A stretch of 47,306 nucleotides of DNA. Source: Nitrospira sp. (GTDB taxonomy: Bacteria; Nitrospirota; Nitrospiria; Nitrospirales; Nitrospiraceae). The translations under genes were made by a program, and so were the position numbers. This document shows positions 14,841 to 32,075 of the stretch, piece after piece. The notes below the pieces were generated by a model that was not told where the DNA came from, made no database searches, and was given only the letters and a program-made list of their open reading frames with translations. The number at the start of each line of letters is the position of its first letter. Position 1 is the stretch's first letter. Location: contig JAHBWT010000024.1 in the NCBI GenBank assembly GCA_019636815.1, positions 1 through 47,306 of the forward strand, given 5' to 3'.

Positions 14841-14854
14841 GCAAATACTGCGCC
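14841..14854 (-). promoter_or_regulatory. Sigma-54 (-24/-12) promoter for the SGNH hydrolase
   Basis: On the minus strand AGGCGCAGTATTTGCT matches the sigma-54 consensus TGGCAC-N5-TTGC, with the invariant GG and GC separated by exactly ten bases. The predicted start of transcription, near 14829, leaves a 50-base leader before the ribosome site of the gene at 14777. The -24 block deviates at two positions. Confidence 0.6.
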
Positions 14855-15036
14855 TCATTTTCACCAGAACATGACGACACTCCATTCCGGGAAATTCATG
14901 TAGAGGTGTCCGTCCCGTTTGATCCAAGGCTCCTAAAACGGGCATCCGGCACCATCCCCACCACTGAACGCTACCATAAAATTTCATTTCAGTAGCCTCG
15001 AAGGGCAACGAAGTGCGGGTCTTCTTATCAACTTGC

Positions 15037-15072
15037 TGAATCCAAAGAGATTCACCTGAAGATAATTCTTCA
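15037..15072. promoter_or_regulatory. Enhancer-like palindromes upstream of the SGNH hydrolase
   Basis: TGAATC-CAAAGA-GATTCA at 15037-15054 is a perfect 6-6-6 palindrome. It is followed at 15057-15072 by a second palindrome, TGAAGA-TAAT-TCTTCA. The first is the same motif seen before the sensory operon (20295-20333). The distance of about 210-240 bases to the predicted transcription start suits a sigma-54 activator. The only downstream target in range is the SGNH gene. Confidence 0.6.
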
Positions 15073-15241
15073 ACATAGACGGCATGGCAATTCTTCGGAA
15101 TTCACTCCATTCGACAGCTTCACGCGTGGTCCCCACTTTACCGCATCGGCACAGCATCTCAGGGGCTTTCAGTGAGCAATATGGGCGAGACGGATCAAAT
15201 GCATAGTTCACCTACAGGGTCTTCTGGACTGAATTGTCTCT

Positions 15242-16693
15242 TCAAACAGAAGAGGGAGTGGTGGGCGGCCTTCCGGATATCTGCTTTTGGCGCAGCAGTT
15301 TAGTCAAGTAGGTTCGCTGTAGGCCGAGGTCAGCGGCCGCTTTCGTTTGATTCCACCCGTTCCGAATCAACGCATTTTCGATAAGCTTTCGACTCTGGGC
15401 ATCCATACTTTCATGATAAGAATGAAAAATGGTTTCACCGTCTGCAGACATGACCGGTTCCTGCCTTGGGCGGACGGGAGAATCAGGCAATAAAAGATCT
15501 TCCGGTTCGATGGTTTCTCCGGAGCATAAGACAAGAGCGCGAGAAATCACGTTCTCCAACTCACGGATATTGCCTGGCCAGGAATAGCGTTGCAACGCCT
15601 CCAACGCAGGGTCGCTGAGCACGTAACGCTTCTGAAGACCCAGCTTGACGGGCCGAGAATTGATGAAGTGCTGAGCAAGGGCGAGAAGGTCGTCCATCCG
15701 CTTCCGTAGCGGAGGCAGTGTGACCGTGATGACGGCAAGGCGAAAGTATAAATCTTCCCGGAATGTTCCTTGACGGATCACCTGTCTGAGGTCTTTATTC
15801 GTAGCGGCAACAACTCTGACGTCGACTTTAATCAACTTAGTCCCGCCCACCCTCGTGAATTGCTGATCTTGCAAAGCACGTAGGACTTTTGCCTGTGTGC
15901 TCATACTCATGTCGCCGATCTCGTCGAGAAACAATGTTCCGCCGTCTGCTTCTTCGAATTGGCCCCGCTTCATGGACGTGGCACCGGTGAAGGCGCCTTT
16001 TTCATGCCCGAAGAGTTCGCTCTCGATCAATGTTTCAGGAATGGCTGCGCAATTGACGGCCACGAATGGTTTGTGGGCGCGAGGACTCCAACGATGAATG
16101 GCGCGGGATAGAATTTCCTTGCCGGTTCCGGTTTCCCCAAGCAATAAGACGGTTGCGGTCGAAGCGGCCGCTTTTTTCGCACAAGCAAGTTGCGCAGTCA
16201 TCTCCTTGTTTGTGGCGACGATGGGGCCGAACTGGTCATCAACCTCCTTTCGAAGCTTATTGAATTGGTGATGGAGGGCGACGGTATCCAGCGCCTTCTT
16301 GATCACGACGGTCAAGTGATCCGCGGTAAACGGCTTGGGGACAAAGTCGAAGGCACCGAGTTGCATGGCCCGCACGGCAAGTTCGATGGTTCCAAATGCG
16401 GTCAGGATAATCATGAGAGGGGTCGTGTACGTACCCGAAATCTGTGGATTGCCCTCTGCTCTAGGTTGATTCAAATTTGAGGTCTCACGGACTCGTTGTA
16501 ATACCTCCATGCCGGATTCAGGCCCAAGCTTGAGGTCCAATAAGACGAGATCAGGCTCCTCTTCCCGGATCAGGCGGAGTGCACCCGCGACATCGGTGGC
16601 GATGAGGGGTTCATGCCCCATCCAGGTGACGCGATTCTCCAAGCTCATGCGGATATCATTTTCGTCATCGACAATCAGTATCTTGGCGTGCAT
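15242..16693 (-). CDS. NtrC-family sigma-54-dependent response regulator
   Basis: This 483-residue activator couples a phosphorelay to sigma-54 promoters. The receiver domain (1-125) has phospho-acceptor Asp53 and Lys120, with a small insert around 72-90. The AAA+ domain (about 155-390) has Walker A GETGTGKE (186-193), the sigma-54-contacting GAFTGA loop (233-238) and Walker B LFLDE (254-258). A Fis-type helix-turn-helix lies at about 440-475 (NALIRNGWNQTKAAADLGLQRTYLTKLL). It is the third gene of an operon with the binding protein and kinase. The kinase is 67 bases upstream, and a GAAAGGAC ribosome site precedes ATG 16693. It probably binds the TGAATC-N6-GATTCA sites in this window; that is inference. 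Confidence 0.92.
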   Translation of the reverse strand: MHAKILIVDDENDIRMSLENRVTWMGHEPLIATDVAGALRLIREEEPDLVLLDLKLGPESGMEVLQRVRETSNLNQPRAEGNPQISGTYTTPLMIILTAFGTIELAVRAMQLGAFDFVPKPFTADHLTVVIKKALDTVALHHQFNKLRKEVDDQFGPIVATNKEMTAQLACAKKAAASTATVLLLGETGTGKEILSRAIHRWSPRAHKPFVAVNCAAIPETLIESELFGHEKGAFTGATSMKRGQFEEADGGTLFLDEIGDMSMSTQAKVLRALQDQQFTRVGGTKLIKVDVRVVAATNKDLRQVIRQGTFREDLYFRLAVITVTLPPLRKRMDDLLALAQHFINSRPVKLGLQKRYVLSDPALEALQRYSWPGNIRELENVISRALVLCSGETIEPEDLLLPDSPVRPRQEPVMSADGETIFHSYHESMDAQSRKLIENALIRNGWNQTKAAADLGLQRTYLTKLLRQKQISGRPPTTPSSV

Positions 16694-16760
16694 GGGGGTC
16701 CGTCCTTTCGGAGAGCGGCTTCTCTGCTACAGGAAAACATGGCTATACGCGGCGAATTGC

Positions 16761-19064
16761 TTATGTGGTCTGGCCTGTCTCATTCAGCGGTCCGGCAATC
16801 GGGAGCGTGAAGGAAAAGCGTGATCCGGCCTCAGGTTGACTTTCCACCCAAATCCTCCCGTGATGCCGCGCGACCAGAGTTTTTGTGATGTACAGCCCCA
16901 ATTGGGCGCCTTGTGATGCAGGCATGGCCGACGGGACCTCGGAAAACTCATCGAAGACATACGGGAGGTGGGAGGAATCGATTCCGCAACCGGTGTCGGC
17001 GACACACGTCTGTACGAAGCCTGATGAGCCTACCGTAAATTCGACCGTGACACGGCCGCCTGATGGTGTGAATTTGATCGCATTTCCGATGAGATTCACC
17101 AGGATCTGCTCCAATTTGTCGGGGTCACCTTGGACCAAAGGAAGATTCTCGATCGGCGCGACGGCCAGGGACACCCGGCTATCCGACGCGACGGTTTCCA
17201 AACCTTCGGCGACGATCGTTGCAATTTGGCCGATGCAGACATGTTGCAAGCGAAGATGGTCGGAACGTAGCCAATCAAGCAATTCTTCAGCCAATCTCGC
17301 CAGTCGAGCGACGCTGTGTTTGATTCGTGTGAGATAGATACGCTGCTGTTCGGTGAGCGGCCCCGTGACGCCGTCAAGCATGTTTTCCACGAAACTCCAA
17401 ATCGCCGTCATCGGAGTCCGCAGCTCATGCGAAACGACTTTGACGTACTTTGATCGGCGTGTGTCGTGAGCCTGAAGCTGTAAGTTAGCGAGTGACAACT
17501 CTGCCGTCCGTTGCGCGATGCGCTCCTCGAGATGCTGAGTGAGTTCGGTCAGTTCGGAATAGGCCTTGGCATTGTCGATGGCGGCGGCGACGTGGCCGGC
17601 AATCGTCAGCAGGATGTGGAGATCCTCTTCGGTGCATTGGTGAGCGCCTCGGTCTCCGCCGAGGTATCCGAGGATCCTGGCATGGCTCTGGAGCGGTACG
17701 GCGACGAACGACCGCACTCCTGAATGGCGCATCAAGTCGAGCACGGGCGGATACATGCGATGAGCGATGGTTTCGACGTCGCGGATCAGGACTGGTTTAC
17801 CGTGAATGATGAGTTCAGCGGTGATACTATCGCTAACGACAGGTATATCCAACCTGTGACTTGCCTCCTGAACCTCGGGCGCAAATCCAAGACTTTGAGC
17901 GATGGACGCGCAGTTCCGTTCCGGATGGTGAAGGAACACGACCATCCGGGAAAAGCCAAGATTCTCGACGAGCAGGTGGAGCACCGAGTCCAGCAGTTGA
18001 TTCATGTCGAACATGTTGGCGTTCGCGATCGCGGTGCTGGCCTGATGGACCGTGGTCAGTTGTTTGATTTGCTTCCTGATCGTATCGAGGTTCATGGTGA
18101 TCGCATTATTGCGATCATGGAGGGATTGAATCATCACGTTGAACACGTGGGTCAGCTCACCTACTTCGTCGTTGGTGGATGCCGTGAGTCGAACCGGCGC
18201 ATCGTTTCCTCCCGCCAGTTGCCGGGCGGAGTGGGCGAGGCTTCTGAGCGGCGTCGTAATGCGTGAGGTGAGCAGGTGAGCGCCAAGGATGCCTAGTGCA
18301 ATAATGACCATCGTCAGAATCGAAACATTCTGGACGATGGCGAGTAGCGCTTGTTTGGATTGCGCGTCGGTGATTCCGATGCGCACGAGGCCGAGCACCG
18401 GAGAAAATGGGATTGGGGTCATCGAACCTTGTTTCTCTTCCAATTCGACTGAAAGGCGGGACGGGGCGGTTTCAGACGAGGGTTCCCGAAGGACCGGCAT
18501 CGCAAAGTCAAACAGGGTTTCTTTGCGCATGAGAAAAGGGAGAAGCCAGTCTGCAAACTGGTCTTGAGGAACCAATGTCTGTTCTGCAGACAGAACGAGT
18601 TTGGTCATGAGCGGAGCGGTCAGCGGAGTCTGGAGCAGTGATTCTGAGATGCGGTCATCCGGGTAGAGCGGCTGTTCCGTGGTGAGAGAGGACCCGTTCA
18701 ATGTCCTCCGCATTCGTTTGCTTTGCCGCTCCAAGATACGACCGTCCGCGGAGGTGATGGTCACGTAGACGACGTGGTCGATTGTCATAAGACTTTGTAT
18801 GAATTGATCAAGCGTGCTGCGATCTTCGAGCACGACACCGGCGATCCGAAAGTGATCGTTCCGAACGGTATTGATCAACAAGATGTTTCCGAGCTCTTCC
18901 AAGTTATCGGTCATGGCCTGGCGTCTTGTTTCGATGAAATACCAGCTTAGGGACGAACAGGCCATGACGAGAATGAAGCTGAACAGGCACACGAACTTCA
19001 AGCGAAGGCCGAAAAACCGAGCTGTGGACTCCGATTCCCGCCTGTCCTGAAGGTGTGTGTCCAT
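16761..19064 (-). CDS. Membrane sensor histidine kinase with HAMP and GAF domains
   Basis: It autophosphorylates and passes phosphate to the neighbouring response regulator. From the N-terminus: a transmembrane helix (about 25-45), a periplasmic sensor region of about 200 residues, a second helix (about 242-263), HAMP, a GAF-like domain, a coiled coil, HisKA with SHELRTPMTAIW (phospho-His) and HATPase with N box NAIKFTPSGG, DTGCGI and a GLYITK G2 box. I chose ATG 19064. A TTG at 19079 overlapping the upstream stop (TTGA) is an alternative that would give translational coupling. The signal may be sensed through the binding protein encoded just upstream. Confidence 0.9.
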   Translation of the reverse strand: MDTHLQDRRESESTARFFGLRLKFVCLFSFILVMACSSLSWYFIETRRQAMTDNLEELGNILLINTVRNDHFRIAGVVLEDRSTLDQFIQSLMTIDHVVYVTITSADGRILERQSKRMRRTLNGSSLTTEQPLYPDDRISESLLQTPLTAPLMTKLVLSAEQTLVPQDQFADWLLPFLMRKETLFDFAMPVLREPSSETAPSRLSVELEEKQGSMTPIPFSPVLGLVRIGITDAQSKQALLAIVQNVSILTMVIIALGILGAHLLTSRITTPLRSLAHSARQLAGGNDAPVRLTASTNDEVGELTHVFNVMIQSLHDRNNAITMNLDTIRKQIKQLTTVHQASTAIANANMFDMNQLLDSVLHLLVENLGFSRMVVFLHHPERNCASIAQSLGFAPEVQEASHRLDIPVVSDSITAELIIHGKPVLIRDVETIAHRMYPPVLDLMRHSGVRSFVAVPLQSHARILGYLGGDRGAHQCTEEDLHILLTIAGHVAAAIDNAKAYSELTELTQHLEERIAQRTAELSLANLQLQAHDTRRSKYVKVVSHELRTPMTAIWSFVENMLDGVTGPLTEQQRIYLTRIKHSVARLARLAEELLDWLRSDHLRLQHVCIGQIATIVAEGLETVASDSRVSLAVAPIENLPLVQGDPDKLEQILVNLIGNAIKFTPSGGRVTVEFTVGSSGFVQTCVADTGCGIDSSHLPYVFDEFSEVPSAMPASQGAQLGLYITKTLVARHHGRIWVESQPEAGSRFSFTLPIAGPLNETGQTT

Positions 19065-19075
19065 GATCGGACCTG

Positions 19076-20002
19076 TCAATACGTCTCGTCGATATGGCTG
19101 TCGAACTCTTTCGGAAGCGTGATGCCCAGATACCGTGCCATTTTCTGATTCACCGTGATCTTGACCCGGTGAACGGAGACCGGCCTGAGCGGCAGTTGTT
19201 CGCCGTTCACAATCCGTTTGGCAAGAAGGCCGGCTTCACGGCCGACTTCTCCGTAATCGATCGAGATGCTGAGCACCGCACCGAGACGTGTAAATTCTGA
19301 AGAGAACCCGACGACGGGAACCCGTTTGGCTACCGCCGATTCTAGAATAAAGCGAATCGATTCATCCGTCAGGACAGTCGAGTCCGGAATGAGCCATAGG
19401 GCTTCTGATTCTGATAAAAGCGACCGTAGTTGCTGCGGAACCTCTTTCTCGTTTTTGACCGGAAACCTCTGCAATTGAAACTCATGGATGGCGGCTTGGG
19501 ATTCTGCCTCCTTCAGCTTGGCCGCAGTCTTGTCGGGGCCGTAGATCACACCGATCCGGCGAAGGGCGGGTAGGAACGAGCGCATGATCTTGAACTGACG
19601 ATCCATCGGAATTTCCAGCAGGACACCGGCCATATTGGCGGTGGTGAGATGGTATTTCAAGGGATCGAGAATCATCAGGTAAAGAATCGGAATGTCCGTA
19701 ATTTCAAGCTTAGCCGCCAGCGCTGCCTTGAGACCGACGGCAACCACGAGCGAAGACGTCGAAGCGCGGATTGTCCTGGCCAGTTGCTTTCCCCGGTCCA
19801 GATCGCCCCGCAGGTCGTACTCGGCGTAGATCGAAGCCCCGGGCGCCGTCACCTTGAACCCTTCGATCGCGTCGTTATAGGCTTTAAGGTCGGATGATTT
19901 CAGGATGGCAATCTCTACCCCGGCGGCATGAGCGCTCGTAGGGGCAATGGACCAGAGAGCGGTGAGCATGAGAGACAGCAGCCACGTGTGTGAGAAGCGC
20001 AT
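19076..20002 (-). CDS. Periplasmic ABC-type substrate-binding protein (PF04392-like)
   Basis: This 308-residue protein has a signal peptide (MRFSHTW...APTSAHA) and a two-lobed binding fold resembling the TrpX/ABC_sub_bind family: VVAVGLKAALAA, PILYLMILDP, RRIGVIYGPD, ALWLIPDSTVL, RVPVVGFSSEFTRLGA. No ABC permease or ATPase is nearby. It is overlapped by the histidine kinase gene, so it likely acts as the periplasmic ligand receptor of the two-component system rather than in transport. The ATG at 20002 gives the cleanest signal peptide; TTG 20044 or ATG 20041 would extend it by 13-14 residues. It is the first gene after a sigma-54 promoter. Confidence 0.85.
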   Translation of the reverse strand: MRFSHTWLLSLMLTALWSIAPTSAHAAGVEIAILKSSDLKAYNDAIEGFKVTAPGASIYAEYDLRGDLDRGKQLARTIRASTSSLVVAVGLKAALAAKLEITDIPILYLMILDPLKYHLTTANMAGVLLEIPMDRQFKIMRSFLPALRRIGVIYGPDKTAAKLKEAESQAAIHEFQLQRFPVKNEKEVPQQLRSLLSESEALWLIPDSTVLTDESIRFILESAVAKRVPVVGFSSEFTRLGAVLSISIDYGEVGREAGLLAKRIVNGEQLPLRPVSVHRVKITVNQKMARYLGITLPKEFDSHIDETY

Positions 20003-20188
20003 TCCTATCTGTTCACGGCGGGTATAAAGAAGAGAGAGCATCAATACGCCGTTCGAGCAAAGATCATGGAGTCTGTGACCAAAGCATTGGTCTTGTGCAG
20101 CCGAAACGTTGAGACTCGGACGAGATGTTATCTTTCTGTGCGCAAACGTATCCGATTGAGAACGTTGCCGTTGTAATATTGTGATACA

Positions 20189-20203
20189 GCAAGCGGTGTG
20201 CCA
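20189..20203 (-). promoter_or_regulatory. Sigma-54 (-24/-12) promoter of the sensory operon
   Basis: The minus strand reads TGGCAC-ACCGC-TTGCT, a near-perfect sigma-54 promoter: full TGGCAC and TTGC blocks and ten bases between GG and GC. Transcription would start near 20177, about 135-175 bases before the binding-protein start. Because sigma-54 promoters need an activator of the type this operon encodes, autoregulation is likely. Confidence 0.8.
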
Positions 20204-20294: not shown

Positions 20295-20333
20295 TGAATC
20301 CAAATAGATTCAAACTGAATCCAATTGGATTCT
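20295..20333. promoter_or_regulatory. Tandem palindromic activator sites upstream of the sensory operon
   Basis: Two copies of TGAATC-N6-GATTC(A/T) occupy 20295-20312 and 20316-20333. The second contains a 16-base perfect palindrome. Their centres are 21 bp apart, two helical turns, so two dimers would sit on the same DNA face. They are about 120-155 bases upstream of the predicted transcription start, normal for NtrC-type enhancers. The remainder of the gap 20045-20379 shows nothing else. Confidence 0.75.
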
Positions 20334-20379
20334 CCAGCTTAGGTCACACACGTGATGTCCATAAGGTGCCTGTAATCGG

Positions 20380-21138
20380 CTATTTGGCATGGCTCTGAAT
20401 GGAACTAAGATCCCAGTCCGCTACACCGTGCAGGCCGACTTGTCGTAGCAGGGCGGCACGCATCCTCCGAAGTGATGGGTCTCTCGGATCTTTCGTGATC
20501 AACGAGCAGAGGCAGTCCACCGCGTCGTACCAAAGTCCCATCATGGCATTGGTCCGCACACTCTCACGATCGCAGTTCATATTTGGCGAGGCGATCGTCA
20601 GACATTCGCTGAACTCACAGCGTTCGATCATTCCGCCCGCGACGATATCTTGAGAATGGGAGTCGGGATTGCGACGAGCGGAAACGAACCATCGGTACTG
20701 AACATTGGGCTCAAGCACAAGTCCCAGAGCCTTGAGATCGATAGACTGAACCCCGGCGTCAACGGGTGTGGGGAGCGGGCCTTCGTAGACCGGACGTATT
20801 TTCTGAGTGTCGTTGAGCGTGAATCGTAGAGGATAAGTCGTCAGTTTCGAGAGATACCAACTGAGCGTCGGTGTCTGCTTGACGGTCAAACCGACATGAT
20901 CGGGCACCAAGGCGACGATTTCGGGTTCATTGCCCTCCGGTCCCCGCAACGCTCCCCCGACACGTGCACGGGGAGTCAACTTCTTTGGCGGAGTATAAAG
21001 AGGAATCGACAGGTCGTCCTGCTGATCTGCCGACGGCGCGGTCGGTTTGTCTGCGGCAGCAACGATTGCTTGCGGTCCAATAAGGGTCAGGACGAGGCTC
21101 AATGCTGAGATTGGTAGGGAACTCATGGCAAATCGCAT
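20380..21138 (-). CDS. DUF928-family secreted protein
   Basis: This is a 252-residue protein with a signal peptide (MRFAMSSLPISALSLVLTLIGPQAIVAAA). The mature part has the pattern I associate with DUF928: PPKKLTPRARVGGALRG, VALVPDHVGLTVKQTPTLSWYLS, VQYRWFVSARRNPDS, and a C-terminal helical segment with AMMGLWYDAVDCL. The family is best known from cyanobacterial clusters with CHAT and haemagglutinin-type proteins; its function is unknown. The ATG at 21138 follows a GGAGGG site, 11 bases after the CHAT gene's stop, so it is the last gene of the TPS operon. Confidence 0.75.
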   Translation of the reverse strand: MRFAMSSLPISALSLVLTLIGPQAIVAAADKPTAPSADQQDDLSIPLYTPPKKLTPRARVGGALRGPEGNEPEIVALVPDHVGLTVKQTPTLSWYLSKLTTYPLRFTLNDTQKIRPVYEGPLPTPVDAGVQSIDLKALGLVLEPNVQYRWFVSARRNPDSHSQDIVAGGMIERCEFSECLTIASPNMNCDRESVRTNAMMGLWYDAVDCLCSLITKDPRDPSLRRMRAALLRQVGLHGVADWDLSSIQSHAK

Positions 21139-21149
21139 GGGCCCTCCTT

Positions 21150-23492
21150 TCATAGCCAATTGTTCAGAAGGAGAAATGACGACCAGTAGGCCGGATGCGC
21201 GTACACTCGGTCGCTCAAAAGTTTCATCTGTGCGCGCTGGAGCGCGACGGCTTTCGACAGGGATGGGTTGCGCAGGTGACGATAAAATTCGGAGATCAGC
21301 GTTGCCGACGCTTCGTCGTTGATGAACCATAGCGTAGCCAACGCGCTCCGGGCTCCGGCCTTCAGTGCAACGCCGGCCAGGCCAAGGGCGGCGCGATCGT
21401 CACCGACGCCTGTCTGGCACGCGCTCAAGGTCAAGAGTTCGAGCGGCTCTTGCCGGAACCGAAAGAGGCCAACCAGTCGATCAAGCGTCTGCATCGTCAG
21501 TTTCCCATCGAACGTCAAGAGAAACGAATCGTTCACGTCGGCAGAGAACTTGCCGTGTGTCGCAATATGCAAGGCCCCATAGCGTCCATCGCGCAATTCC
21601 TGTTCCAACCTGGGCGTCTGAAAGGCGTTGTTGATGAGTTGATCGCTCGTATAGAGCTGCTTGATCGAGGCGACTTCCTCCGCGACGTAGGGAAGGGGAG
21701 GAAAGCCCTGTACGGATTTCGTGAGGCCGACGGCGAGGAAACGCAGCTTGTCGCGGTTCAACGGTCTGGGGTCGGTCAAGGTAATGCCCGGAGTCAAGGC
21801 AAGGGCGAACTTATTGATCAGGAAAGCTGAGCCGTCGTGGAGCGCCGCCAGTGGAATGGTACGCAGGGAGCTGTCCGGTACGAAGACCAAGGTGGTGATC
21901 TGCGGTTGCACAAGGTCCGTTTCCAACGGGCGCACGAGCCAATCGTACAACTGTTGTGCGTGGGGCAGATATTCCCGAGTGGTCCGTTTTTCCACCACTC
22001 GGCGGAATGCCCGAATTTCCTGGGTCAGCCGATCGGCAGTCACGGGCACCGAGATACGTTTAAGCCCCGAGGGCAGGCTTAGGAGCAGTTCCAGACGGGA
22101 AGTGAACATAATGGGATAGACGACGGCAGTGTCCGGTGATAACTGATCGAACGTCGTCACCTTGGAGCGAACGGCGTCGACACAGTCATCCTTGAAATAG
22201 TCTCGCAGTTCGGCCGTCTTGTACGCCTCAATCGCATCTCGCGCTGCGAGCAGATAGCCCTCGGCTGCTTGACTCTCCTCCGTGAGCGATGCCCGCTGGA
22301 GCAAGAGGTCGGCCAGCTCGAAGAACATCGGTTTCATGACTTCCTGATCAGCTAGAAAATCTTCGGAAGATGCGCGCGCGACCTCCACGCGAATCGGTTG
22401 GAGCGTGGACGCCGCTTGTCGGTAGGCGGCGATGGCGTGATCCAATTCTCCAACAGCGGCCAGCTGCCGCCCTAACTGCCATTGCCAGCGGTAAAGTGAC
22501 TCGGGCGCGTCCACCGATTGCGCCGCGAACAATGCTTGCCTAGTGAGTCGGAGCGCTTCGTCCAGGCGAGACTCTGTCTCGTAGAGATGACCGAGATACC
22601 CAAGGGCATAAGACCGGGTTCTCCTGTCGCCCAACCGCTCAGTGACCGTGGCCGCTTCCTGGAGCATTCCCGCAACCCTCAACAAGAGAGAATCATGTAT
22701 CTGGGGTAGCTGTGAGGCGAGACGCTGGTAGACCAGAGCCATGCCGATCAATCCGAGCGATTTATTCCGGGAGGGTCCAACGTCCTTCAACTCATCGAGC
22801 GCTGCGTCAAGAGCCATGCGGCTATTGACCGGTTGATCCAGATGCAGCAAGACCCGCGCCGCATTGGTGCGGCCGGTGGCGGAAAGCAGTGGCAAGCCGG
22901 CCTTTTGTGCGAAGCGTACGCTTTCATCGAACGCATCCAGCGCATCCTTGTCTTGCTGCTTCAACACGAACAGGATGCCGAGATCGTTCAGCATAGCGGC
23001 CATGTGCGGGAAAGCGTCTTGCTTCCGCGCTAAGGCCGTTGCTTGATGGAGGTATTCCGATGCTTCGACAAGTTGCCGCAGTGTCAAGTAGGCGCGTCCC
23101 AGATGACCGAGGACGGAGGCTTCAGCGAGGGGATCGCCACCCTCCTGTGCGAGCGCAAGTGCCAGTTCCAAAGACTGGAGCGCGTATCTGGATTGCCCCA
23201 ACGCCATCGAAGCCTGAGCAGAGAGAGTGAGCGCCTCGACTTGCGCAGGAGTATTCCCGATACCTTTATAGGAATCCGCAGCCTGTTTCCAATGAGACAA
23301 GGCTTCGCCGAATGCTCCGCGTTCAAAATGCTGCCCGCCTTCCTTCATCAAGGTGTCGCCGGGAGATGACGGTTGATGCGATTCTGATCGCGTGACGGCG
23401 AACAGCAGAACTATGACGAAGAAGAGAAGACTGATTCCGCGCAGAATGAAACGCATGAGTGGTCGAGCGCATTCTGATGTTGCGTGGTTCAT
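21150..23492 (-). CDS. Secreted TPR-CHAT caspase-like protease
   Basis: CHAT domains are caspase-related cysteine peptidases. This 780-residue protein has an N-terminal hydrophobic segment (MRFILRGISLLFFVIVLLF, about residues 13-31), an array of TPR repeats (about 50-400) and a C-terminal CHAT domain (about 480-780). The likely catalytic His (about 646) is in ALHIATHG and the Cys (about 692) in TLSACQTG, both intact. I chose ATG 23492, three bases from the TpsB stop. A later ATG at 23456 would start directly at the signal segment. Export would place the protease in the periplasm beside the two-partner secretion system. Its target could be the TpsA exoprotein or the transporter, which is inference. 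Confidence 0.88.
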   Translation of the reverse strand: MNHATSECARPLMRFILRGISLLFFVIVLLFAVTRSESHQPSSPGDTLMKEGGQHFERGAFGEALSHWKQAADSYKGIGNTPAQVEALTLSAQASMALGQSRYALQSLELALALAQEGGDPLAEASVLGHLGRAYLTLRQLVEASEYLHQATALARKQDAFPHMAAMLNDLGILFVLKQQDKDALDAFDESVRFAQKAGLPLLSATGRTNAARVLLHLDQPVNSRMALDAALDELKDVGPSRNKSLGLIGMALVYQRLASQLPQIHDSLLLRVAGMLQEAATVTERLGDRRTRSYALGYLGHLYETESRLDEALRLTRQALFAAQSVDAPESLYRWQWQLGRQLAAVGELDHAIAAYRQAASTLQPIRVEVARASSEDFLADQEVMKPMFFELADLLLQRASLTEESQAAEGYLLAARDAIEAYKTAELRDYFKDDCVDAVRSKVTTFDQLSPDTAVVYPIMFTSRLELLLSLPSGLKRISVPVTADRLTQEIRAFRRVVEKRTTREYLPHAQQLYDWLVRPLETDLVQPQITTLVFVPDSSLRTIPLAALHDGSAFLINKFALALTPGITLTDPRPLNRDKLRFLAVGLTKSVQGFPPLPYVAEEVASIKQLYTSDQLINNAFQTPRLEQELRDGRYGALHIATHGKFSADVNDSFLLTFDGKLTMQTLDRLVGLFRFRQEPLELLTLSACQTGVGDDRAALGLAGVALKAGARSALATLWFINDEASATLISEFYRHLRNPSLSKAVALQRAQMKLLSDRVYAHPAYWSSFLLLNNWL

Positions 23493-23494
23493 CG

Positions 23495-25303: not shown

Positions 25304-28300
25304 GAGCGGCAGCCTGTGGATCCAATCGCAAACGTCCGAACCAAAAATCCGGGCGGCGTCAGCCGTCGAAGGGACACGATCTCTGTCTCAGTCACCGGTG
25401 CAGTCGCACGCAAACCCGTCGCATGCTCGGGACCTTCTCCAGTGACATGATCTATCGAAATAGGGCTATTGAGCCATCCGCCCGGTTGGGAGGGGAGGGC
25501 GTCACGTCCGGCGACGATAAAGGTGCTCTGTTCCCCGCCGGCAAGCGCGGCGCAACGGTTGTACAAGAGGGCTTGCGTGTTGCTCGGTTTCGACGGGAGC
25601 TGCGTGACCGTGCCGCTCAAGTTCGACGTGGGGGACTGAATCGTCACCGTGCCGTTCACGCCAAATTGTGATGACGCATCGACGAGACTTGCAGGGTCGG
25701 CCAGGAACAGCGGCGTTGTAATCGTGATGTTGCCGCCGTGTCCTTGGACCGCTTGTGCAAGGACCTGGCTGTTTTGCAGAATAACCACGTTCGGATCGAT
25801 CGTGATGTTGCCGCCGTTGCCGCTGTCGGCACCGACTGAAGCGCTGACCTGACTGTTCACGAACCGGATACGATCGATGGCGCGAATATCGATATTGCCG
25901 CCGCTGGCTTGATCGGCCTTCGTTGTGATCAAACCGTTCTGGACATCAAGTTGCTGACCGGCATCGATCAAGATATTACCTGCGTCGCCGGGACCAGTAC
26001 TGCTGGCGGAAATGCTTCCGCCGCGATTCAACTCGACCGACCGATCTGCAATGATTATGATATTTCCGCCCCTGCCTGATGATCCAAATTCAGAGGTGCT
26101 AAGAATGGCTGTTGGCGTTACGGCGCCTGCCGGATCAGTGAATCGTCCGGATAAGGCCATGTCTGTGACAGCAATAAGTATGTTTCCACCGTTACCTGTG
26201 CCGACCGATGTCGAGCTGACAATTTGGCTTCCACCGGAAAGTGCCAGGCCATTCGAGGCAATTGAAATGTTTCCCGCATTACCATTTTCAAACGTAAGTG
26301 TGCTTACCATGGCATGATCAGCCAAGGTGATTGTCTGAGCGGACATCTTGATCGAGCCGACGTCAGATAAGAAACCACTGACGCGTACATCAGCCCCACG
26401 TGTTAAGTTGATCGAATCCGTAGCGAGGAGAGAAAGTTTAGGTTGTGCCGAAGGGGTTGGGTCAAAAAACGTGGTGCTTCTGATCCAGGCCCCGTCTGTA
26501 ACAATCAAGTCTTTCGAGTCGATGACAATATGGCCAGTGCCCCCATTTCCAAAGTTCTCATTCATAATCCGGCTCGGTGTACCGTCTGCTCCAATGCCGG
26601 TAATGGAGACAGCGTCCTTTGCGTTAATTGTGATAGTTCCAGACTGCTTGACATCGCTCCCACTTGTCTGAACTGAACCACCGCCGGTGACCGTCAAGGT
26701 ATCAGTGGTAAGGGCAATATCGCCGGCGCGTCCAGTACCAAAGGGAATCGTTTCAATCATTCCTTGGTCGTGAAGCACGATAGACCGCGCAGTGACAGAG
26801 ATAGAGCCACCATCTCCCACTGATTCTGGCTTGCTTCTGATAGCACTGTTTGCACCAAACGTATCTATTCCAGAAATCGAAAGTGAGTCGGTAACTACTG
26901 CAATGTCTCCAGCCTTTCCATTCCCGCGTGTCTCGAATGTGACAAAGTCTAGTCCTGAACCGGTGAATATTCGTCCGCCGGTTTTGAGGCCAATTTCCCC
27001 TGAATCAATGGAGACGCTGCCTCCTGCTCCGTCACCTGATGTGAATGTGGCGATTCGACCCGTATCTTCGACAGTGAGTCGCGGGGCAACAATAGTAAGC
27101 GCTCCGCCAACTCCCTCTGTGGAGGTATTGCTGAAGACGCCACTCGCCATCACGGGAAGATCGCTGGCGATTCCGGTGAGCGTGCCAGTTGTATCGAACC
27201 CGGAAATGGTCAGAGAATCCGTCGCGGCGATATGGACCGACCCTGCGGATCCGTTCCCGTCGGTACTGCTGGCTATTTGTGCACCGCCGACAAGTGCGAT
27301 AGACGAGGCATTCACGGAAATATTGCCACCGGCTCCTTCGCCGACCGCACTGCTTCTCAGCAGGGCACCCTCCATGGCCAGGTGACTGGAAACCAGTTGA
27401 ATGCTCGCTCCTGGATCGGCCCCAGAGTTCGATGTCACGATCGAACTTTCTCTCATAAGACTGATCGTATCGGAGGAATCGGCATTCTCGGTGGTGGTGA
27501 GCAGAGCATCATTTACAGTGATGGCGAACTGGCCGCTGCGAATGGAGACTGTACCCTTGTCGTTGATATTGATGTTTGAGCCCGGAGTCAGAACGATGAC
27601 CCCAGACGACTTGAACGATGTGTCATTTACATTCGCACGTGGCTGAAGAGTCGCGGCATCAAACTCGCCGGGAGATGTAGTGCTGGCTAATTGAACCTTG
27701 CCTTCTGGTGCAGAGAGGCGTGCAGGTTGGACAGTGCCGCTATTCAAAGTTCCTGATTCAATTGTGACGTTTCCTCCAATCAGAGAAATTCCCATACCGT
27801 TTGATACGGTAAGTTGACTGCCTTGAACCGTAATCACTCCTGGATTAGATCCGAGGAATCCAAATGCTGCGACAGGGGAGGCGCTTAATAAGGCGTCTGC
27901 GGTTGTGCTTGGAATGGCGTTAAACTTCGCACCGTCATTGAGCCTCAAATGGTCTGCCGATGTGAACGTGACCATTCCACCAACGTTCAGCGTCGCATTT
28001 GGCCCGAATAAGAATCCTGCTGGATTGATGAGGAATAGATTGGCATTCCCAAAATCAGTGGTTTGAATTGATCCATAGATATTTGAGATGTTGCCGTCGG
28101 TAATGCGACCTAATATGTTGGCTGTCGGAATCCCGGCATCATTCTGAAAATTTGCAATACTGTTATGAGGGACCCCGAATTGACCAAAGCTATGAAACAG
28201 GTTCGTTCCGTCTCCAGGTCTTGTTCCACCGGTGATATTAAATTGAGTTTTCCCCCCAACAGCGATCGGTCCGCTGACCTGCGTGTTTAATCCGGATGGC

Positions 28301-28428
28301 GTGATGGGAATGGTTTGAGCTCGAGCGCTATCCACACAGGGGCTGAGAGAAACAGTCCAGAGTAACAGAATGGGGACAGTGCAGCTCCTTCGACTGAAAA
28401 GTACGGTTTGGCATGTAGCCCCATACAT
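25300..28428 (-). CDS. TpsA filamentous haemagglutinin-like exoprotein
   Basis: This 1,042-residue secreted beta-helical protein is the substrate of the adjacent TpsB. A signal peptide (about 1-38, ending DSARAQ) leads into the TPS secretion domain (about 40-250), with NLFHSFGQF and NLFLINPAGFLFGPNA at about 130-145. The rest is a repetitive beta-helix of GGNI, GGSIS and AGNI motifs rich in Gly, Ser, Thr and Asn, with almost no cysteine. The end is proline/threonine-rich. I chose ATG 28428; an ATG at 28491 would add 21 residues before the signal peptide. Large exoproteins of this type act in adhesion, biofilm or contact-dependent competition. I see no toxin domain at the C-terminus. Confidence 0.9.
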   Translation of the reverse strand: MYGATCQTVLFSRRSCTVPILLLWTVSLSPCVDSARAQTIPITPSGLNTQVSGPIAVGGKTQFNITGGTRPGDGTNLFHSFGQFGVPHNSIANFQNDAGIPTANILGRITDGNISNIYGSIQTTDFGNANLFLINPAGFLFGPNATLNVGGMVTFTSADHLRLNDGAKFNAIPSTTADALLSASPVAAFGFLGSNPGVITVQGSQLTVSNGMGISLIGGNVTIESGTLNSGTVQPARLSAPEGKVQLASTTSPGEFDAATLQPRANVNDTSFKSSGVIVLTPGSNININDKGTVSIRSGQFAITVNDALLTTTENADSSDTISLMRESSIVTSNSGADPGASIQLVSSHLAMEGALLRSSAVGEGAGGNISVNASSIALVGGAQIASSTDGNGSAGSVHIAATDSLTISGFDTTGTLTGIASDLPVMASGVFSNTSTEGVGGALTIVAPRLTVEDTGRIATFTSGDGAGGSVSIDSGEIGLKTGGRIFTGSGLDFVTFETRGNGKAGDIAVVTDSLSISGIDTFGANSAIRSKPESVGDGGSISVTARSIVLHDQGMIETIPFGTGRAGDIALTTDTLTVTGGGSVQTSGSDVKQSGTITINAKDAVSITGIGADGTPSRIMNENFGNGGTGHIVIDSKDLIVTDGAWIRSTTFFDPTPSAQPKLSLLATDSINLTRGADVRVSGFLSDVGSIKMSAQTITLADHAMVSTLTFENGNAGNISIASNGLALSGGSQIVSSTSVGTGNGGNILIAVTDMALSGRFTDPAGAVTPTAILSTSEFGSSGRGGNIIIIADRSVELNRGGSISASSTGPGDAGNILIDAGQQLDVQNGLITTKADQASGGNIDIRAIDRIRFVNSQVSASVGADSGNGGNITIDPNVVILQNSQVLAQAVQGHGGNITITTPLFLADPASLVDASSQFGVNGTVTIQSPTSNLSGTVTQLPSKPSNTQALLYNRCAALAGGEQSTFIVAGRDALPSQPGGWLNSPISIDHVTGEGPEHATGLRATAPVTETEIVSLRRLTPPGFLVRTFAIGSTGCRS

Positions 28429-28551
28429 TGTGCTGCTTCCCTCAGTATGCACCCGTGGGCAAATATAAACTTCACTCAAGGAGAAAGACAATGCTCATGC
28501 GTTCCTTCCTAAATCTAATCACTGCTAATGGCCAGATTAGGCGCACAATGC

Positions 28552-29400
28552 TTACTTGATATAGACACCCACACAGCCAGAGTTGGGGAAATAGATTCCC
28601 AGGCAACCTTCACGTCCAGGACCGATCTGCTTCAAGACCGTGTCGAGAAGCGGTGTGGCCGTCGGCTCTGGGTCACTCTGTCCCCCACAGATAGGGTCAT
28701 AGTCAGTGTCAGACTCAGTTAGACACATAGGAGGATCTTGAGGAAATGCTTGATTGTGGTATTTCATAAATGGGTTGGTTGTGCGGAAATCCAGTGTGCT
28801 GCCGGCAGTAAGGTTTTCGATGTTGAGGTCTACCTCCAGTGTTCGCGCCCCGCTAAAGTTGGGTGCTTGTGGGGCTGGTGTCTTGGTTTTATTGATATTT
28901 GCTCCTTCGGACCACATATGAGTAAGCGACGACGTCAAGAGGATATTTCCCGAGGAATCCTTCAATCTGTATGTAGCGGTGATTTTGTTGGGACTGACGG
29001 CAGTCATCTTTCCGTATAAATGTGGTTTGTAATATACATTTGGTGGGGAGTTGGGTCCGGAGTCGAACTGCTTTTTGAATATGATGTGGAAATTTGTCAG
29101 AGTCGTATTTGCGGTGATCAATGCGTTCTTGATTGTGAGAATGTCGGAAGCGCTATCGACCCCTTCTGTAATGACCCTGGCTTTGTTGCTTGCATCTAGG
29201 TCTGTGATGGTGATCTGAGGAGTCGCGGAGGGGCAGTGTGTTGCAATCAGAACCTGGGTTAGTCCCGGTGTCAATGCTGGGCTGCATGTCAGACCGTTGA
29301 TATTGACCGTAATATTGCCTGCCGCCAGCACGGTAGAGTGAACGTTCGCCATTGCGAAGAGTAGAAACGCTATTATCAACCAACCTCTAGACCTCCTCAT
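28552..29400 (-). CDS. Secreted hypothetical protein
   Basis: This is a 282-residue protein with a clear signal peptide (MRRSRGWLIIAFLLFAMANVHSTVLA-A). The mature part is beta-rich with several Asn/Thr/Pro stretches (NITVNINGLTCSPALTPGL) and Cys residues spaced to form disulfides (two near the N-terminus, four near the C-terminus). An AAGGAGGG site precedes the ATG at 29400. It lies just upstream of the TPS operon on the same strand. I recognise no family. A surface or matrix role is possible but unproven. Confidence 0.7.
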   Translation of the reverse strand: MRRSRGWLIIAFLLFAMANVHSTVLAAGNITVNINGLTCSPALTPGLTQVLIATHCPSATPQITITDLDASNKARVITEGVDSASDILTIKNALITANTTLTNFHIIFKKQFDSGPNSPPNVYYKPHLYGKMTAVSPNKITATYRLKDSSGNILLTSSLTHMWSEGANINKTKTPAPQAPNFSGARTLEVDLNIENLTAGSTLDFRTTNPFMKYHNQAFPQDPPMCLTESDTDYDPICGGQSDPEPTATPLLDTVLKQIGPGREGCLGIYFPNSGCVGVYIK

Positions 29401-29690: not shown

Positions 29691-31187
29691 TCATTCCTCT
29701 CGTAAATCAGATGGTTCAGCAGGAGGTGAATTATCGAGATAAAGTCGGTCGCTGAAGCGGGACACTTGGCCAGCCGTCTCATTTAATACCCGCAGGTTAT
29801 TGTCGATTGATGTACCCGCAGAAGATCCCGTAGGAAACGGATCCGAAGGGCTCGACCACATGTTGACAAACCACGCGGGTTTGATCGGAACTCCCATGAT
29901 TGTGGCCTCATGGCTGCTCTCGTTCACATATCCATACCCGTATCCAGTAAGGGGAGGACCCCCTCGCCTCTCAACATCGGCGCGGTCATGGTCTGCCCCC
30001 ATGACATGCCCTAATTCATGGTGAAATGTGAGAAAGTTGGCGGCGCAATTCCGTCGCACAACAGAGAAGGCCCAGTTTTCTGGATCTGCGTAGTTATAAT
30101 CCCATGTTCCTGATGACACCCATTTCATAGGTCCGTAAGATTCGCCACATGGTTCCGGATTGTCATACTCCACCCATAGACTGACGACGTCTGCCTTATT
30201 GTCACGACGCCATTGATGAACTTGATTGAGAAATGGGTCTGTCGGTCCCCCCTTTCCTTGGAGGTAACTTAAGTCTGTGTTAACACTATGTTGAGGGTAG
30301 TCCACCTCATTGACATACACCAGACGGAATTCTAACTGGCTATTCGGACCCAGACTACTATTGGCTTCTCCGACTGCCACAAGAATGTTGTCCGTAATCA
30401 GACACAGCTTGCACCAGTCCTCTACAGTGGTTTTTGCTTGTTTGGTGTAGACAACCATCACATCGACTTTCGTTTTTTGCCCCGTCTGAACCTGGATTGT
30501 TGAGGGAAGCGGCAGCGTCAGTTTGTCTGCTTGAGGGGTGATCCTAGCGGGTGAAGAACTACGACGTTCCTTAGGTGACTTGTCTGGCATACGCGGTGAT
30601 CTATTACGTACACGGGGTGGCGTATCGGCCACATAGAGTTGGGGATCCACCTCGACAATCGAAATGGTCGCGCGACCAACCGGACGAATATCATAGATGT
30701 GCCCTTGATACCTGATTGTCCCAGAAATCGCCTGATCTCGCTCTCTAACGATGAAGACGGCCTCACTGGAGGCATCGCCGTTTATTCGTCCTATCCAACT
30801 CAGGCGAGCAATGGTTCCCTCTGGTCCAGCGAATTTCTGGACAGTGCTCGGCGGTTTTACAGGGAAAAACTCACGACAGTCCATTGAGGAAGTCAGAGGC
30901 AGGCAGACTCTGGTGATACCCTTGAGTCCAGCAGAAACTATATTCCAATCTAACTGCGCAATTCTTAGATGTGCTCCCGGTAGACCATCTGGCGAAGAAC
31001 GGGAGAAATTGCCAGCTTGAATTTCGTCATCCGACAGATCGGTAAAGATCGACTGTACGGTTTGTCGAACTTTTGGAGGATCTCCATAGGCAAGTTGTCT
31101 GTAGATGGAAGTTCCTCCATAAAGGGCATCAATGATCAATAAAGTTACTATAAAGATTGAAAGGTCGAAAGGGGGCATTCTTCTCAC
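29691..31187 (-). CDS. Secreted zinc metalloprotease (metzincin-like)
   Basis: This 498-residue protein has an N-terminal hydrophobic segment (about 8-22), a long pro-region (about 40-235) and a catalytic domain (about 236-470). The zinc site HELGHVMGADHD at 390-401 fits HExxHxxGxxH(D), with His390, Glu391, His394 and His400, as in reprolysin-like or peptidyl-Asp-type metzincins. Four cysteines occur around 259-262 and 347-381. The start is a GTG at 31187 behind an AGGAGAG site. It lies in a run of minus-strand secreted-protein genes, so it may process extracellular proteins together with the CHAT protease. Confidence 0.82.
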   Translation of the reverse strand: MRRMPPFDLSIFIVTLLIIDALYGGTSIYRQLAYGDPPKVRQTVQSIFTDLSDDEIQAGNFSRSSPDGLPGAHLRIAQLDWNIVSAGLKGITRVCLPLTSSMDCREFFPVKPPSTVQKFAGPEGTIARLSWIGRINGDASSEAVFIVRERDQAISGTIRYQGHIYDIRPVGRATISIVEVDPQLYVADTPPRVRNRSPRMPDKSPKERRSSSPARITPQADKLTLPLPSTIQVQTGQKTKVDVMVVYTKQAKTTVEDWCKLCLITDNILVAVGEANSSLGPNSQLEFRLVYVNEVDYPQHSVNTDLSYLQGKGGPTDPFLNQVHQWRRDNKADVVSLWVEYDNPEPCGESYGPMKWVSSGTWDYNYADPENWAFSVVRRNCAANFLTFHHELGHVMGADHDRADVERRGGPPLTGYGYGYVNESSHEATIMGVPIKPAWFVNMWSSPSDPFPTGSSAGTSIDNNLRVLNETAGQVSRFSDRLYLDNSPPAEPSDLREE

Positions 31188-31351: not shown

Positions 31352-31552
31352 TTACGACCCGGCAATTATTGCTCCTGGGTTGAACCGACAGGCAATCTCG
31401 AAGTCGTGTTCATCTGGATAGGCCTTTGCCATTTCATCGTCAATACGATCGCGCTCGCTGTGGCACTCCTGGGATGTGGGATAGGTTTGTAGCAATGTCA
31501 CGGTGCTTATCCCAGGCACCGTGTTCAGTAGAACGATAACCAACATCCACAT
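31352..31552 (-). CDS. Small secreted or membrane-anchored protein
   Basis: This is a 66-residue protein with a hydrophobic N-terminus (MWMLVIVLLNTVPGISTV) and a charged remainder containing two cysteines (CHSERDRIDDEM, EIACRF). A strong AAGGAGG site precedes the ATG at 31552. It would be the main intact gene downstream of the sigma-54 promoter at 31904-31917. No family is recognised. Confidence 0.6.
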   Translation of the reverse strand: MWMLVIVLLNTVPGISTVTLLQTYPTSQECHSERDRIDDEMAKAYPDEHDFEIACRFNPGAIIAGS

Positions 31553-31612
31553 GGCGCCTCCTTTCGGCAGAGACTTTGGCCATGGCTGCAGTGCACTCGC
31601 TTCTCAATTGCA

Positions 31613-31788
31613 TTACCCAGTTGTCAGCGATTCATCGGCATGGTGTAGGGATATGCCGGTCCTTGAGATCCAATGCTTTCTTATGATGTCCACTCGGCGC
31701 GCATCGGCGTCGAACCTATCGGTGACGCTCACACCTTGGTCAGCCCATCAACGATAAGCCGGCCATCAAGAGACCCGCGAGACTGCAA
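31613..31788 (-). pseudogene. Possible small secreted-protein gene with a frameshift
   Basis: After an AGGAGG site at 31794-31799 one frame gives a hydrophobic stretch LAGLLMAGLSLM. One base later another frame gives ADQGVSVTDRFDADARRVDIIR..., ending at 31613. Together they look like a signal peptide and a short mature protein, separated by one or two indels in GGG or nearby. It lies directly behind the sigma-54 promoter at 31904. It could instead be untranslated leader. Confidence 0.25.
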
Positions 31789-31903
31789 GGTGTCCTCCTA
31801 TGCGACAGAATAGTTTGCCGCTTTGCATAAATTTCATATGCGGACCATTGGCCCTTACCGATTACCGTTCCGGTCTGATAGGCCCTATATCTGTTCCCCA
31901 TTA

Positions 31904-31917
31904 GCAAAGGACGAGCC
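31904..31917 (-). promoter_or_regulatory. Sigma-54 (-24/-12) promoter for the small secreted genes
   Basis: The minus strand reads TGGCTCG-TCCT-TTGCT: one mismatch to TGGCACG-N4-TTGCT and the required ten bases between GG and GC. Transcription would start near 31892 and run into the small genes at 31788-31352, possibly on to the metalloprotease. Confidence 0.65.
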
Positions 31918-32036
31918 ATTGGTGAGACGGGGAATGCAGCTTCGCTAACTTCCCGCAAAGTGTGAGCGAATGGGCTGATGCTACGTTTTCTGTGTTGTAA
32001 GAAAGCGGTTAATTTGAGGCTGACAGGGGGTGTCGG

Positions 32037-32075
32037 TGAACCGAAACGGATTCAGTCTGAATCTAATTCAATTCA
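32037..32075. promoter_or_regulatory. Tandem palindromic activator sites (second tandem pair)
   Basis: TGAACC-GAAACG-GATTCA (32037-32054) and TGAATC-TAATTC-AATTCA (32058-32075) each match the TGAATC-N6-GATTCA motif at 11 of 12 positions. Their centres are 21 bp apart, exactly as in the pair before the sensory operon. They are about 145-185 bases upstream of the predicted start near 31892. Confidence 0.65.

Follow-up and report, generated by a model that had tools for sequence, protein, structure and literature searches.

A putative autoregulated, sigma-54-dependent signalling locus predicted to control a surface adhesin system in Nitrospira

Members of Nitrospira, which grow in flocs and biofilms, are major nitrite oxidisers, and some carry ammonia oxidation to completion. 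In the textbook case of NtrC at glnA, a regulator composed of a receiver, an AAA+ domain with a GAFTGA motif and a Fis-type HTH acts through palindrome pairs placed some 100 bp ahead of -24/-12 promoters and controls its own synthesis; the locus described here encodes a regulator of the same composition, with a similar operator arrangement and predicted autoregulation. It likewise shares with two-partner secretion of the FhaB/FhaC type the side-by-side placement of a TPS exoprotein and a ShlB/POTRA_2 transporter. PrsK/PrsR, the PEP-CTERM regulatory system, consists of a kinase and a sigma-54 response regulator controlling surface proteins, and was found through a conserved upstream motif and then a sigma-54 site; its motif 1, a 17-mer with TTTACA at its end, lies at a mean distance of 62.8 nt from the sigma-54 motif (PMC1569441). 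A broad comparative claim makes sigma-54 a controller of the bacterial exterior, its promoters serving genes for exopolysaccharide, lipoproteins and the envelope (PMC3162934).

Judged by titles and abstract openings, no description of a sigma-54 regulon in Nitrospira was found among the literature matches listed. Searches on Nitrospira two-partner secretion, CHAT, filamentous hemagglutinin and NtrC with TonB, and on DUF928 with CHAT or two-partner secretion, returned nothing on this system among the matches listed, and none was found on SBP-kinase-NtrC three-component systems. Here, the window (the whole stretch of DNA analyzed, 47,306 nt, positions 1 to 47,306 of Nitrospira sp. contig JAHBWT010000024.1, assembly GCA_019636815.1) is considered likely to hold a sigma-54-dependent signalling locus that regulates both itself and a surface adhesin system. 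Operators, promoters, their distances, their conservation and gene families were read from the sequence, and from these we infer regulator binding, phosphorelay, ligand sensing, transcription and operon structure.

Secretion and sensor genes

The genes under discussion are the following.

31352-31552, minus strand: small ORF of 66 aa, secreted-like and preceded by a ribosome-binding site, possible first gene of the secretion operon (ORF only)
29691-31187, minus strand: M12/reprolysin-type metallopeptidase with a hydrophobic N-terminus (PF13688)
28552-29400, minus strand: 282-aa protein with a hydrophobic N-terminus, without Pfam match
25300-28491, minus strand: TpsA-type exoprotein with a TPS secretion domain (PF05860, 2.4e-36)
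23495-25303, minus strand: TpsB-type transporter with POTRA_2 and ShlB (PF03865, 1.2e-26; PF08479, 1.8e-22)
21150-23585, minus strand: TPR and CHAT protein (PF12770, 3.3e-58); longest frame, the true start may be further in
20380-21330, minus strand: DUF928 protein (PF06051), last gene before operator pair B; longest frame, the true start may be further in
19076-20044, minus strand: substrate-binding protein, SBP (PF04392)
16761-19079, minus strand: transmembrane histidine kinase with HAMP, GAF, HisKA and HATPase domains, about 190 residues separating two TM-like stretches
15242-16693, minus strand: NtrC-type response regulator, the proposed activator, with a receiver, a sigma-54 AAA+ domain containing GAFTGA, and a Fis HTH with an LQRTY helix

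The adjacency of a TPS-domain exoprotein and a POTRA/ShlB transporter identifies a two-partner secretion system; in the profile scan, 7 of 20 genes had no Pfam match. The regulator has NtrC-family architecture (PF00072; PF00158, 2.3e-72; PF02954), with the GAFTGA loop that contacts sigma-54 at about residue 233, and is predicted to activate in an ATP-dependent manner; RpoN has one match in the genome. As the preliminary description had stated, this is the only such activator encoded here, since it was the sole match to the regulator on the contig. Assignment to NtrC proper (TIGR01818) or AtoC (NF008469) was rejected, the scores being 410.0 and 421.8 bits against cut-offs of 558.6 and 714, as was assignment to the PEP-CTERM regulator PrsR (TIGR02915; 404.3 bits against a cut-off of 502.6), whose operator also differs.

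The gene order SBP, kinase, regulator was found in all 20 relatives fetched, one of which (L184) has a second regulator without an SBP. Such linkage of an SBP gene to kinase and regulator genes is that of a binding-protein-assisted two-component system, in which contact between SBP and kinase is predicted. In the window, the SBP gene is flanked by the DUF928 and kinase genes and no transporter gene adjoins it. The genome has three occurrences of PF04392, all of them some 2 kb away from the regulator or a close paralogue of it, strands differing on C4 and C68. The SBP would sense a ligand on behalf of the adjacent kinase, which would phosphorylate the regulator.

Operator pairs and sigma-54 promoters

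The following sites were located in the window.

32037-32075: tandem operator pair A, upstream of the secretion operon; two 18-bp palindromes (32037 and 32058), each with 1 mismatch, whose centres are 21 bp apart
20295-20333: tandem operator pair B, palindromes at 20295 (exact) and 20316 (1 mismatch), centres 21 bp apart, between the DUF928 and SBP genes
15037-15054: palindrome C, exact TGAATC-N6-GATTCA
31903-31918, minus strand: sigma-54 -24/-12 promoter TGGCTCGTCCTTTGCT, 1 mismatch to TGGCAC-N5-TTGCW, 118 bp from pair A
20188-20203, minus strand: sigma-54 -24/-12 promoter TGGCACACCGCTTGCT, 0 mismatches to TGGCAC-N5-TTGCW, 91 bp from pair B
14840-14855, minus strand: candidate sigma-54 promoter AGGCGCAGTATTTGCT, 2 mismatches to TGGCAC-N5-TTGCW, without conservation support
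14948-14963, minus strand: weak GG-N10-GC element TGGTGGGGATGGTGCC, score 4.4, at +73 from palindrome C

The alignments to TGGCAC-N5-TTGCW set the GG-N10-GC spans at 14841-14854, 31904-31917 and 20189-20202; the preliminary description had given the first two correctly and the third one base too long (20189-20203). It had also reported that two of three palindrome groups are tandem pairs with centres exactly 21 bp apart, which was borne out for 20295/20316 and 32037/32058. At 15037-15072, the TGAATC-N6-GATTCA palindrome that it described is present at 15037, but its partner is of another kind, the 16-bp palindrome TGAAGA-N4-TCTTCA (15057-15072), 19 bp away. With a sigma-54 PWM that is approximate, written from a consensus and untrained, the promoters at 20189 and 31904 took the two highest ranks of the 94,582 positions in the window, both strands counted, with the 14841 element in the top five.

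Comparison with related loci showed that these pairs are a recurrent feature. In 446 kb comprising the window and related loci, 48 pairs were found against none in three shuffles, a number that includes L069r, an apparent duplicate of one L179 pair, leaving 47 distinct pairs, 42 of them with a promoter. Spacing was 21 bp in 33 pairs, 22 bp in 13, 19 bp in one and 24 bp in one. Within 220 nt downstream, on the gene strand, a sigma-54 score of at least 10 was reached at 43 of the 48 pairs. The opposite strand gave 2 of 48, and the upstream flank none of the 48 on either strand. Promoters lie 118-122 bp from the pair before secretion operons of relatives that have it, 87-105 bp from the pair before SBP operons, except for 52 (L180) and 64 bp (L186), and 72-75 bp from it in 10 of 11 cases downstream of the regulator.

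The pair between the DUF928 gene and the SBP/sensor operon is kept in 19 of 20 related loci, three of these 19 (L182, L192 and L196) having it 1.8-6.5 kb before the SBP gene and not directly before. The pair before the secretion operon, upstream of TpsA, was found in 13 of the 20, with several of the remainder truncated at contig or fetch ends; in the CR1.3 locus (L070) no pair was found. When 19 loci were aligned on the pair, conservation was almost entirely confined to columns within the palindromes: the pairs have kept their place while the sequence around them drifted. This comparison with relatives lends good support to the earlier proposal of sigma-54 promoters with paired NtrC-type operators, autoregulation and an adjacent cognate activator. 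The regulator would bind as paired dimers on the tandem palindromes, two helical turns apart, and open sigma-54 promoters about 90-120 bp downstream. One predicted target is its own operon, as originally suggested. The other is the two-partner-secretion operon (metalloprotease, TpsA, TpsB, CHAT and DUF928); the preliminary description had spoken here of small secreted genes, which is too narrow, since the promoter at 31904 most likely drives this whole 11-kb operon.

The third site and the SGNH hydrolase gene

13821-14777, minus strand: SGNH/GDSL hydrolase (PF13472), tentative target

Of 20 related loci, 15 carry one or more palindromes (up to 2 mismatches) at this third place, which lies downstream of the regulator gene. 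A small RNA was considered, as little had been called there, and was rejected: the alignment showed reading frames with ribosome-binding sites, a pN/pS of 0.26 (from 8 of 10 sequences in two equal-length groups, the sequence pairs not being independent) and few changes at codon position 2, so that small proteins are more likely. L186 and L195 were left out of that count for length, L195 being shifted out of frame. The third operator probably drives small membrane proteins in many relatives.

In the window, the same operator may have been taken over by the SGNH hydrolase gene, which the preliminary description had named as a target and which stands only tentatively, the third site being weaker in this respect than the other two. 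The chances are almost evenly balanced, slightly to its disadvantage, that the gene is a genuine third target, having inserted recently and acquired a promoter of its own under an old operator. Pointing to it are the high rank of the 14841 element, the location of this element some 60 bp ahead of a start codon that has a ribosome-binding site, and candidate promoters 165-190 bp from some 17-bp pairs elsewhere (L209 and L211). Against it, the gene is present in 1 of 77 genus genomes, which gives no support to a conserved SGNH target and leaves no conservation footprint possible; the 14841 element lies 181 bp from palindrome C, compared with the usual 72-75 bp in relatives, and the usual +73 position carries the weak element only, possibly a decayed promoter.

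The operator beyond the window, and known systems

The preliminary description had called the regulon local, which did not hold. This genome contains 6 exact and 36 near-exact sites (up to 1 mismatch); 19 of the 36 are in tandem pairs, 15 of them on other contigs, and some near-exact sites adjoin TonB receptors and paralogous regulators. Among 13 pair rows outside the window contig, 5 reach a sigma-54 score of at least 10, and in several of the rest the -24 element is present as an AG variant; with only 5 at that score, the motif is by strict criteria found in part without the promoter, an outcome listed beforehand as adverse. The AG variant, NAGCAY-N5-YTGCT, with A for the first G of the -24 GG, was counted 9 times beside pairs and twice elsewhere in 1.5 Mb of both strands, leaving out both L069r and L179; at the C133 pairs it takes the place of a strict GG-N10-GC (up to 2 mismatches), which was not found nearby. 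In a set of 40 loci, 34 had pairs, giving 47 rows, two places being listed twice as one site can pair with two neighbours; 37 of the 47 rows passed a relaxed score, taken as the better of both strands and without matched control.

Exact palindromes total 342, spread over 56 of 79 genus genomes, and the reversed pattern occurs in none of the 79. Uncorrected for shared ancestry, the median per genome is 7 in the 46 with a close regulator, 4 in the 9 with a second type only, and 0 in the 24 with neither. G022 was counted among the 9 by best E-value, though it holds a partial copy of the close type. Nine of the 46 have 0 or 1 exact palindromes.

That chance palindromes met chance promoter matches is next to inconceivable. 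Single palindromes at up to 2 mismatches are only mildly unusual in the window (7 against 2.85 expected, with 3 of 100 shuffles reaching 7), and 15 of the 36 near-exact genome sites are lone, 9 of 13 inspected lying inside called genes; the pairs, by contrast, are absent from shuffles, kept across the genus and tied to promoters, which refutes a chance origin for them. The palindromes might instead belong to an unrelated transcription factor, e.g. a repressor, with sigma-54 promoters merely adjacent, as several pairs elsewhere that lack a strict sigma-54 element would allow; this is very improbable given the regular distance and orientation to the sigma-54-like element at 43 of 48 pairs and the co-occurrence of palindromes with the regulator across genomes.

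A further alternative, which we place appreciably below an even chance, is that several paralogous NtrC-type regulators (C61, that of the window, C68, C4 and C122) read the operators with one helix, so that the window promoters answer more than one kinase and spacing or promoter distance sets which acts. The recognition helix NQT[KR]AA..L.LQRTY[LF][TA][KR]L is common to 4 of 16 aligned regulators, the other twelve differing; on C68 and C4 the regulator gene is preceded by palindromes no more than about 300 bp upstream, and each has an SBP of its own some 2 kb off; and genomes with the second type only still have sites, two of which in G019 are 1.6 and 5.7 kb from the second-type regulator. Set against this, the 1.5 kb or so around C122 and C73 contains no palindrome at up to 2 mismatches, the C68 regulator is preceded by a lone palindrome and not by a pair, and the pattern G.F.GA was not found in that regulator, making its sigma-54 contact uncertain. 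Furthermore, 18 of the 24 genomes with neither regulator type have zero palindromes, and spacing and promoter distance differ between site groups, which could mean separate regulons. Because three other regulators in the genome share its recognition helix, 15242-16693 is a candidate, not a proven, cognate activator. Wider still, and rather doubtful, is a genus-wide sigma-54 surface regulon in which paralogous SBP-kinase-NtrC systems would converge on one operator pair, with targets sorted by spacing (17, 19 or 21-22 bp) and promoter distance (about 72, 87-105, 120 or 165-190 bp), and which would include unannotated membrane proteins of 27-36 residues and the AG promoter variant.

If the preferred reading of an autoregulated locus controlling adhesin secretion is right, the control of surface attachment can be put to the test: there is an operator, together with a candidate regulator and sensor, and likely targets can be named among adhesin, secretion, lipoprotein-like and receptor genes. 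The operator can also point to unannotated targets, very small proteins included. Compared with NtrC at glnA, the operator sequence differs, and the predicted target is a secretion/adhesin operon. Unlike FhaB/FhaC-type secretion, the system has adjoining CHAT and DUF928 genes, in relatives too, and would be under sigma-54 control. With PrsK/PrsR it shares a kinase and sigma-54 regulator, an upstream DNA motif followed by a sigma-54 site, and a probable surface-protein target; it differs in having TGAATC-N6-GATTCA pairs at 91 and 118 bp from the promoter, and an SBP, which is not among the three proteins named there for PrsK/PrsR (PMC1569441). The locus also fits the theme of sigma-54 and the bacterial exterior, the accessible portion of that work describing neither its operator nor a Nitrospira regulon (PMC3162934).

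Putative operators and promoters of the sensor-regulator locus

The genome holding the window (4.01 Mb, 143 contigs, the window being the whole of contig C61) was searched for RpoN, giving one match. The minus-strand gene row comprises genes for an SGNH hydrolase, an NtrC-type regulator, a histidine kinase and a PF04392 binding protein (SBP), followed by DUF928, CHAT, TpsB, TpsA, a 282-aa protein and an M12-type metallopeptidase. The regulator contains a receiver domain, a sigma-54 AAA+ domain, GAFTGA and a Fis-type HTH, and its nearest named relatives are from Nitrospira (Nitrospira sp. BO4, 89% identity; CR1.3, 61%). A gene at 12321-13412 (plus strand) has, as judged by eye, a CheB-type methylesterase-like N-terminus with a GASAGG motif. 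The features considered are:

14841-14854, minus strand, candidate sigma-54 promoter (GG-N10-GC)
15037-15054, exact palindrome TGAATC-N6-GATTCA, the third site
15242-16693, minus strand, NtrC-type regulator
16761-19079, minus strand, histidine kinase
19076-20044, minus strand, SBP
20189-20202, minus strand, sigma-54 promoter
20295-20333, palindrome pair before the SBP operon
31904-31917, minus strand, sigma-54 promoter
32037-32075, palindrome pair before the secretion operon

Promoter and palindrome coordinates in the preliminary description proved correct, with an error of at most one base. Scored with an approximate weight matrix built from the consensus, two of the promoters ranked as the top two of 94,582 window positions and the third fell within the five best. 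The lone palindrome motif was only mildly enriched in the window. Genome-wide, it occurred six times exactly and 36 times with at most one mismatch, versus none and one for the reversed pattern. Nineteen of the 36 near-exact sites sit in tandem pairs and 15 are lone, nine of 13 examined lone ones falling within called genes; the last two are that at 15037 and one preceding the regulator on contig C68.

The locus was compared with 20 orthologous ones from elsewhere in the genus and with those of BO4 and CR1.3. In 19 of the 20 (locus L184 being the exception) the DUF928 and SBP genes have a tandem pair between them, which stands 1.8-6.5 kb ahead of the SBP gene in L182, L192 and L196; 13 of the 20 have a pair ahead of TpsA, several others being interrupted by contig or fetch ends. 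The CR1.3 locus has no tandem pair. In total 48 pairs were found (one a duplicate), versus none in three shuffles, with spacings of 21 bp (33 pairs), 22 bp (13), 19 bp (one) and 24 bp (one). In a pair-anchored alignment of 19 loci, columns were conserved within the palindromes and hardly any in their surroundings; such palindrome-confined conservation is a footprint.

A sigma-54 score of at least 10 was reached downstream of the pair, on the downstream strand, for 43 of the 48, versus two on the opposite strand and none on either strand of the upstream flank; the remaining five are L186 17825, L187 17325, L188 346, L195 17789 and L197 157. The pair-promoter distance varies with the gene served. 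Secretion operons have 118-122 bp and SBP operons 87-105 bp (exceptions L180, 52 bp, and L186, 64 bp); among the 11 pairs that lie downstream of the regulator, 10 have 72-75 bp and the other (L184) 121 bp.

The putative operator pair ahead of the SBP operon implies that the regulator would control its own expression, and that ahead of the 31904 promoter implies that the secretion operon would be under its control. SBP may act as a co-sensor for the kinase, because no transporter gene adjoins it in the window and about 190 residues separate two membrane-like stretches of the kinase.

The third site and probable small membrane proteins

The SGNH hydrolase had been proposed as a target of the regulator. 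The third site holds one exact palindrome, followed by two elements, one at +73 that scores weakly and a stronger one at +181 that precedes the SGNH gene. At least one palindrome occupies this position in 15 of 20 relatives; the SGNH gene was found in one of 77 genomes. The hydrolase is a possible target.

The next called gene after the regulator is a convergent rdgB in nine of 21 relatives, and in three of 21 the stretch after the regulator has no called gene. Of 16 loci examined, 12 carry membrane-type frames of 27-36 residues with ribosome-binding sites downstream of the regulator. The first small frame, used as a profile, matched 23 of 77 genomes (E <= 1.1e-6), the best match lying within about 900 bp of a close-type regulator in all 23. 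Eight more genomes gave weak matches (6e-5 to 2e-3) located elsewhere, and the window's own genome gave none. The sequences from L187 (G031:C32:45598-45684) and 22 other genus genomes form a single-helix family of 28-30 residues, uncalled by a simple caller, with consensus MMSDEMAMLTISGAI.FAVMML.MLMR.A and pN/pS of 0.26 (eight sequences). Its genes lie downstream of the regulator gene, after a sigma-54-like promoter, often paired with a second protein of 27-30 residues.

Sites elsewhere in the genome and the genus

On contig C133, paired sites adjoin TonB receptors and an Ig-domain protein of 2,389 aa, and on C105 a TonB receptor. On C68, roughly 5-6 kb separates them from the gene for an NtrC-type regulator, which is accompanied by genes for an SBP, a kinase and a TonB receptor; on C4 they directly precede an NtrC-type regulator, with an SBP gene nearby. 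Only five of 13 pair rows outside C61 in this genome had a sigma-54 score of at least 10. The C133, C105 and C4 pairs carry, at 97-119 bp, an AG variant, NAGCAY-N5-YTGCT, in which the GG of the -24 element reads AG. Across the fetched loci (1.5 Mb, both strands) nine copies of this variant follow pairs in the window of 60-135 nt downstream, and two lie elsewhere; GA, CG and TG variants were each absent beside pairs. All nine lie 97-120 bp from their pairs, and six belong to the window's genome.

AG-variant promoters beside operator pairs
Window's genome: L016 (C133) 746, 4297, 8592; L017 (C133) 25511; L020 (C105) 346; L022 (C4) 5904-5956
Further loci: L201, L204, L213

The C61, C68, C4 and C122 regulators share a recognition helix that differs in twelve others; the pattern G.F.GA was not found in the C68 regulator. 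Two further PF04392 genes (L018, C68; L022, C4) lie about 2 kb from NtrC-type regulators with palindromes just upstream. L016-L017 (C133:1-34000) hold five operator pairs in or near gaps, genes for TonB receptors and the large protein, here Ig/cadherin-like, and a row encoding M50/HlyD, SecA-like, HlyD and outer-membrane efflux proteins.

Tandem pairs were present in 34 of 40 stretches selected from other genomes for exact palindromes. None of 47 pair rows fell within genes called by a simple caller, and 37 had a sigma-54-like element nearby by a relaxed score with no matched control. Thirteen of 20 scanned adjoining genes matched Pfam, including TPS exoproteins, RTX repeats, a RoxA-like cytochrome, beta-propellers, an ABC transporter, TPR and AAA proteins, LuxR-type regulators and a BrnT toxin; seven had no match, and several further ones appeared lipoprotein-like by eye. 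Promoters resembling TGGYCCGTTCYTTGCT (L200, L203, L208, L210, L215, L221, L229, L233, L238) stand about 72 bp away from pairs spaced by 19 or 21 bp, and are often followed by genes for lipoprotein-like or very small membrane proteins.

Exact palindromes numbered 342 in 79 genus genomes, with medians, over raw genomes uncorrected for shared ancestry, of 7 in 46 with a close regulator copy, 4 in nine with the second type only and 0 in 24 with neither; nine of the 46 have just 0 or 1. Among 245 phylum genomes, those outside the family hold 0 to 2 each and the family's other genera 0 to 9.

Comparison with known systems

The system resembles NtrC-type enhancer systems. By its family scores the regulator does not qualify as PrsR, NtrC proper or AtoC proper. 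The nearest analogue is the system described in PMC1569441, whose operator differs from that of the window. The passages of PMC3162934 and PMC12316311 that were consulted contain no operator of the TGAATC-N6-GATTCA kind, and 'nitrospir' is absent from the main text of the latter. As far as the literature matches listed go, the regulon is undescribed and represents a general kind that is already known.
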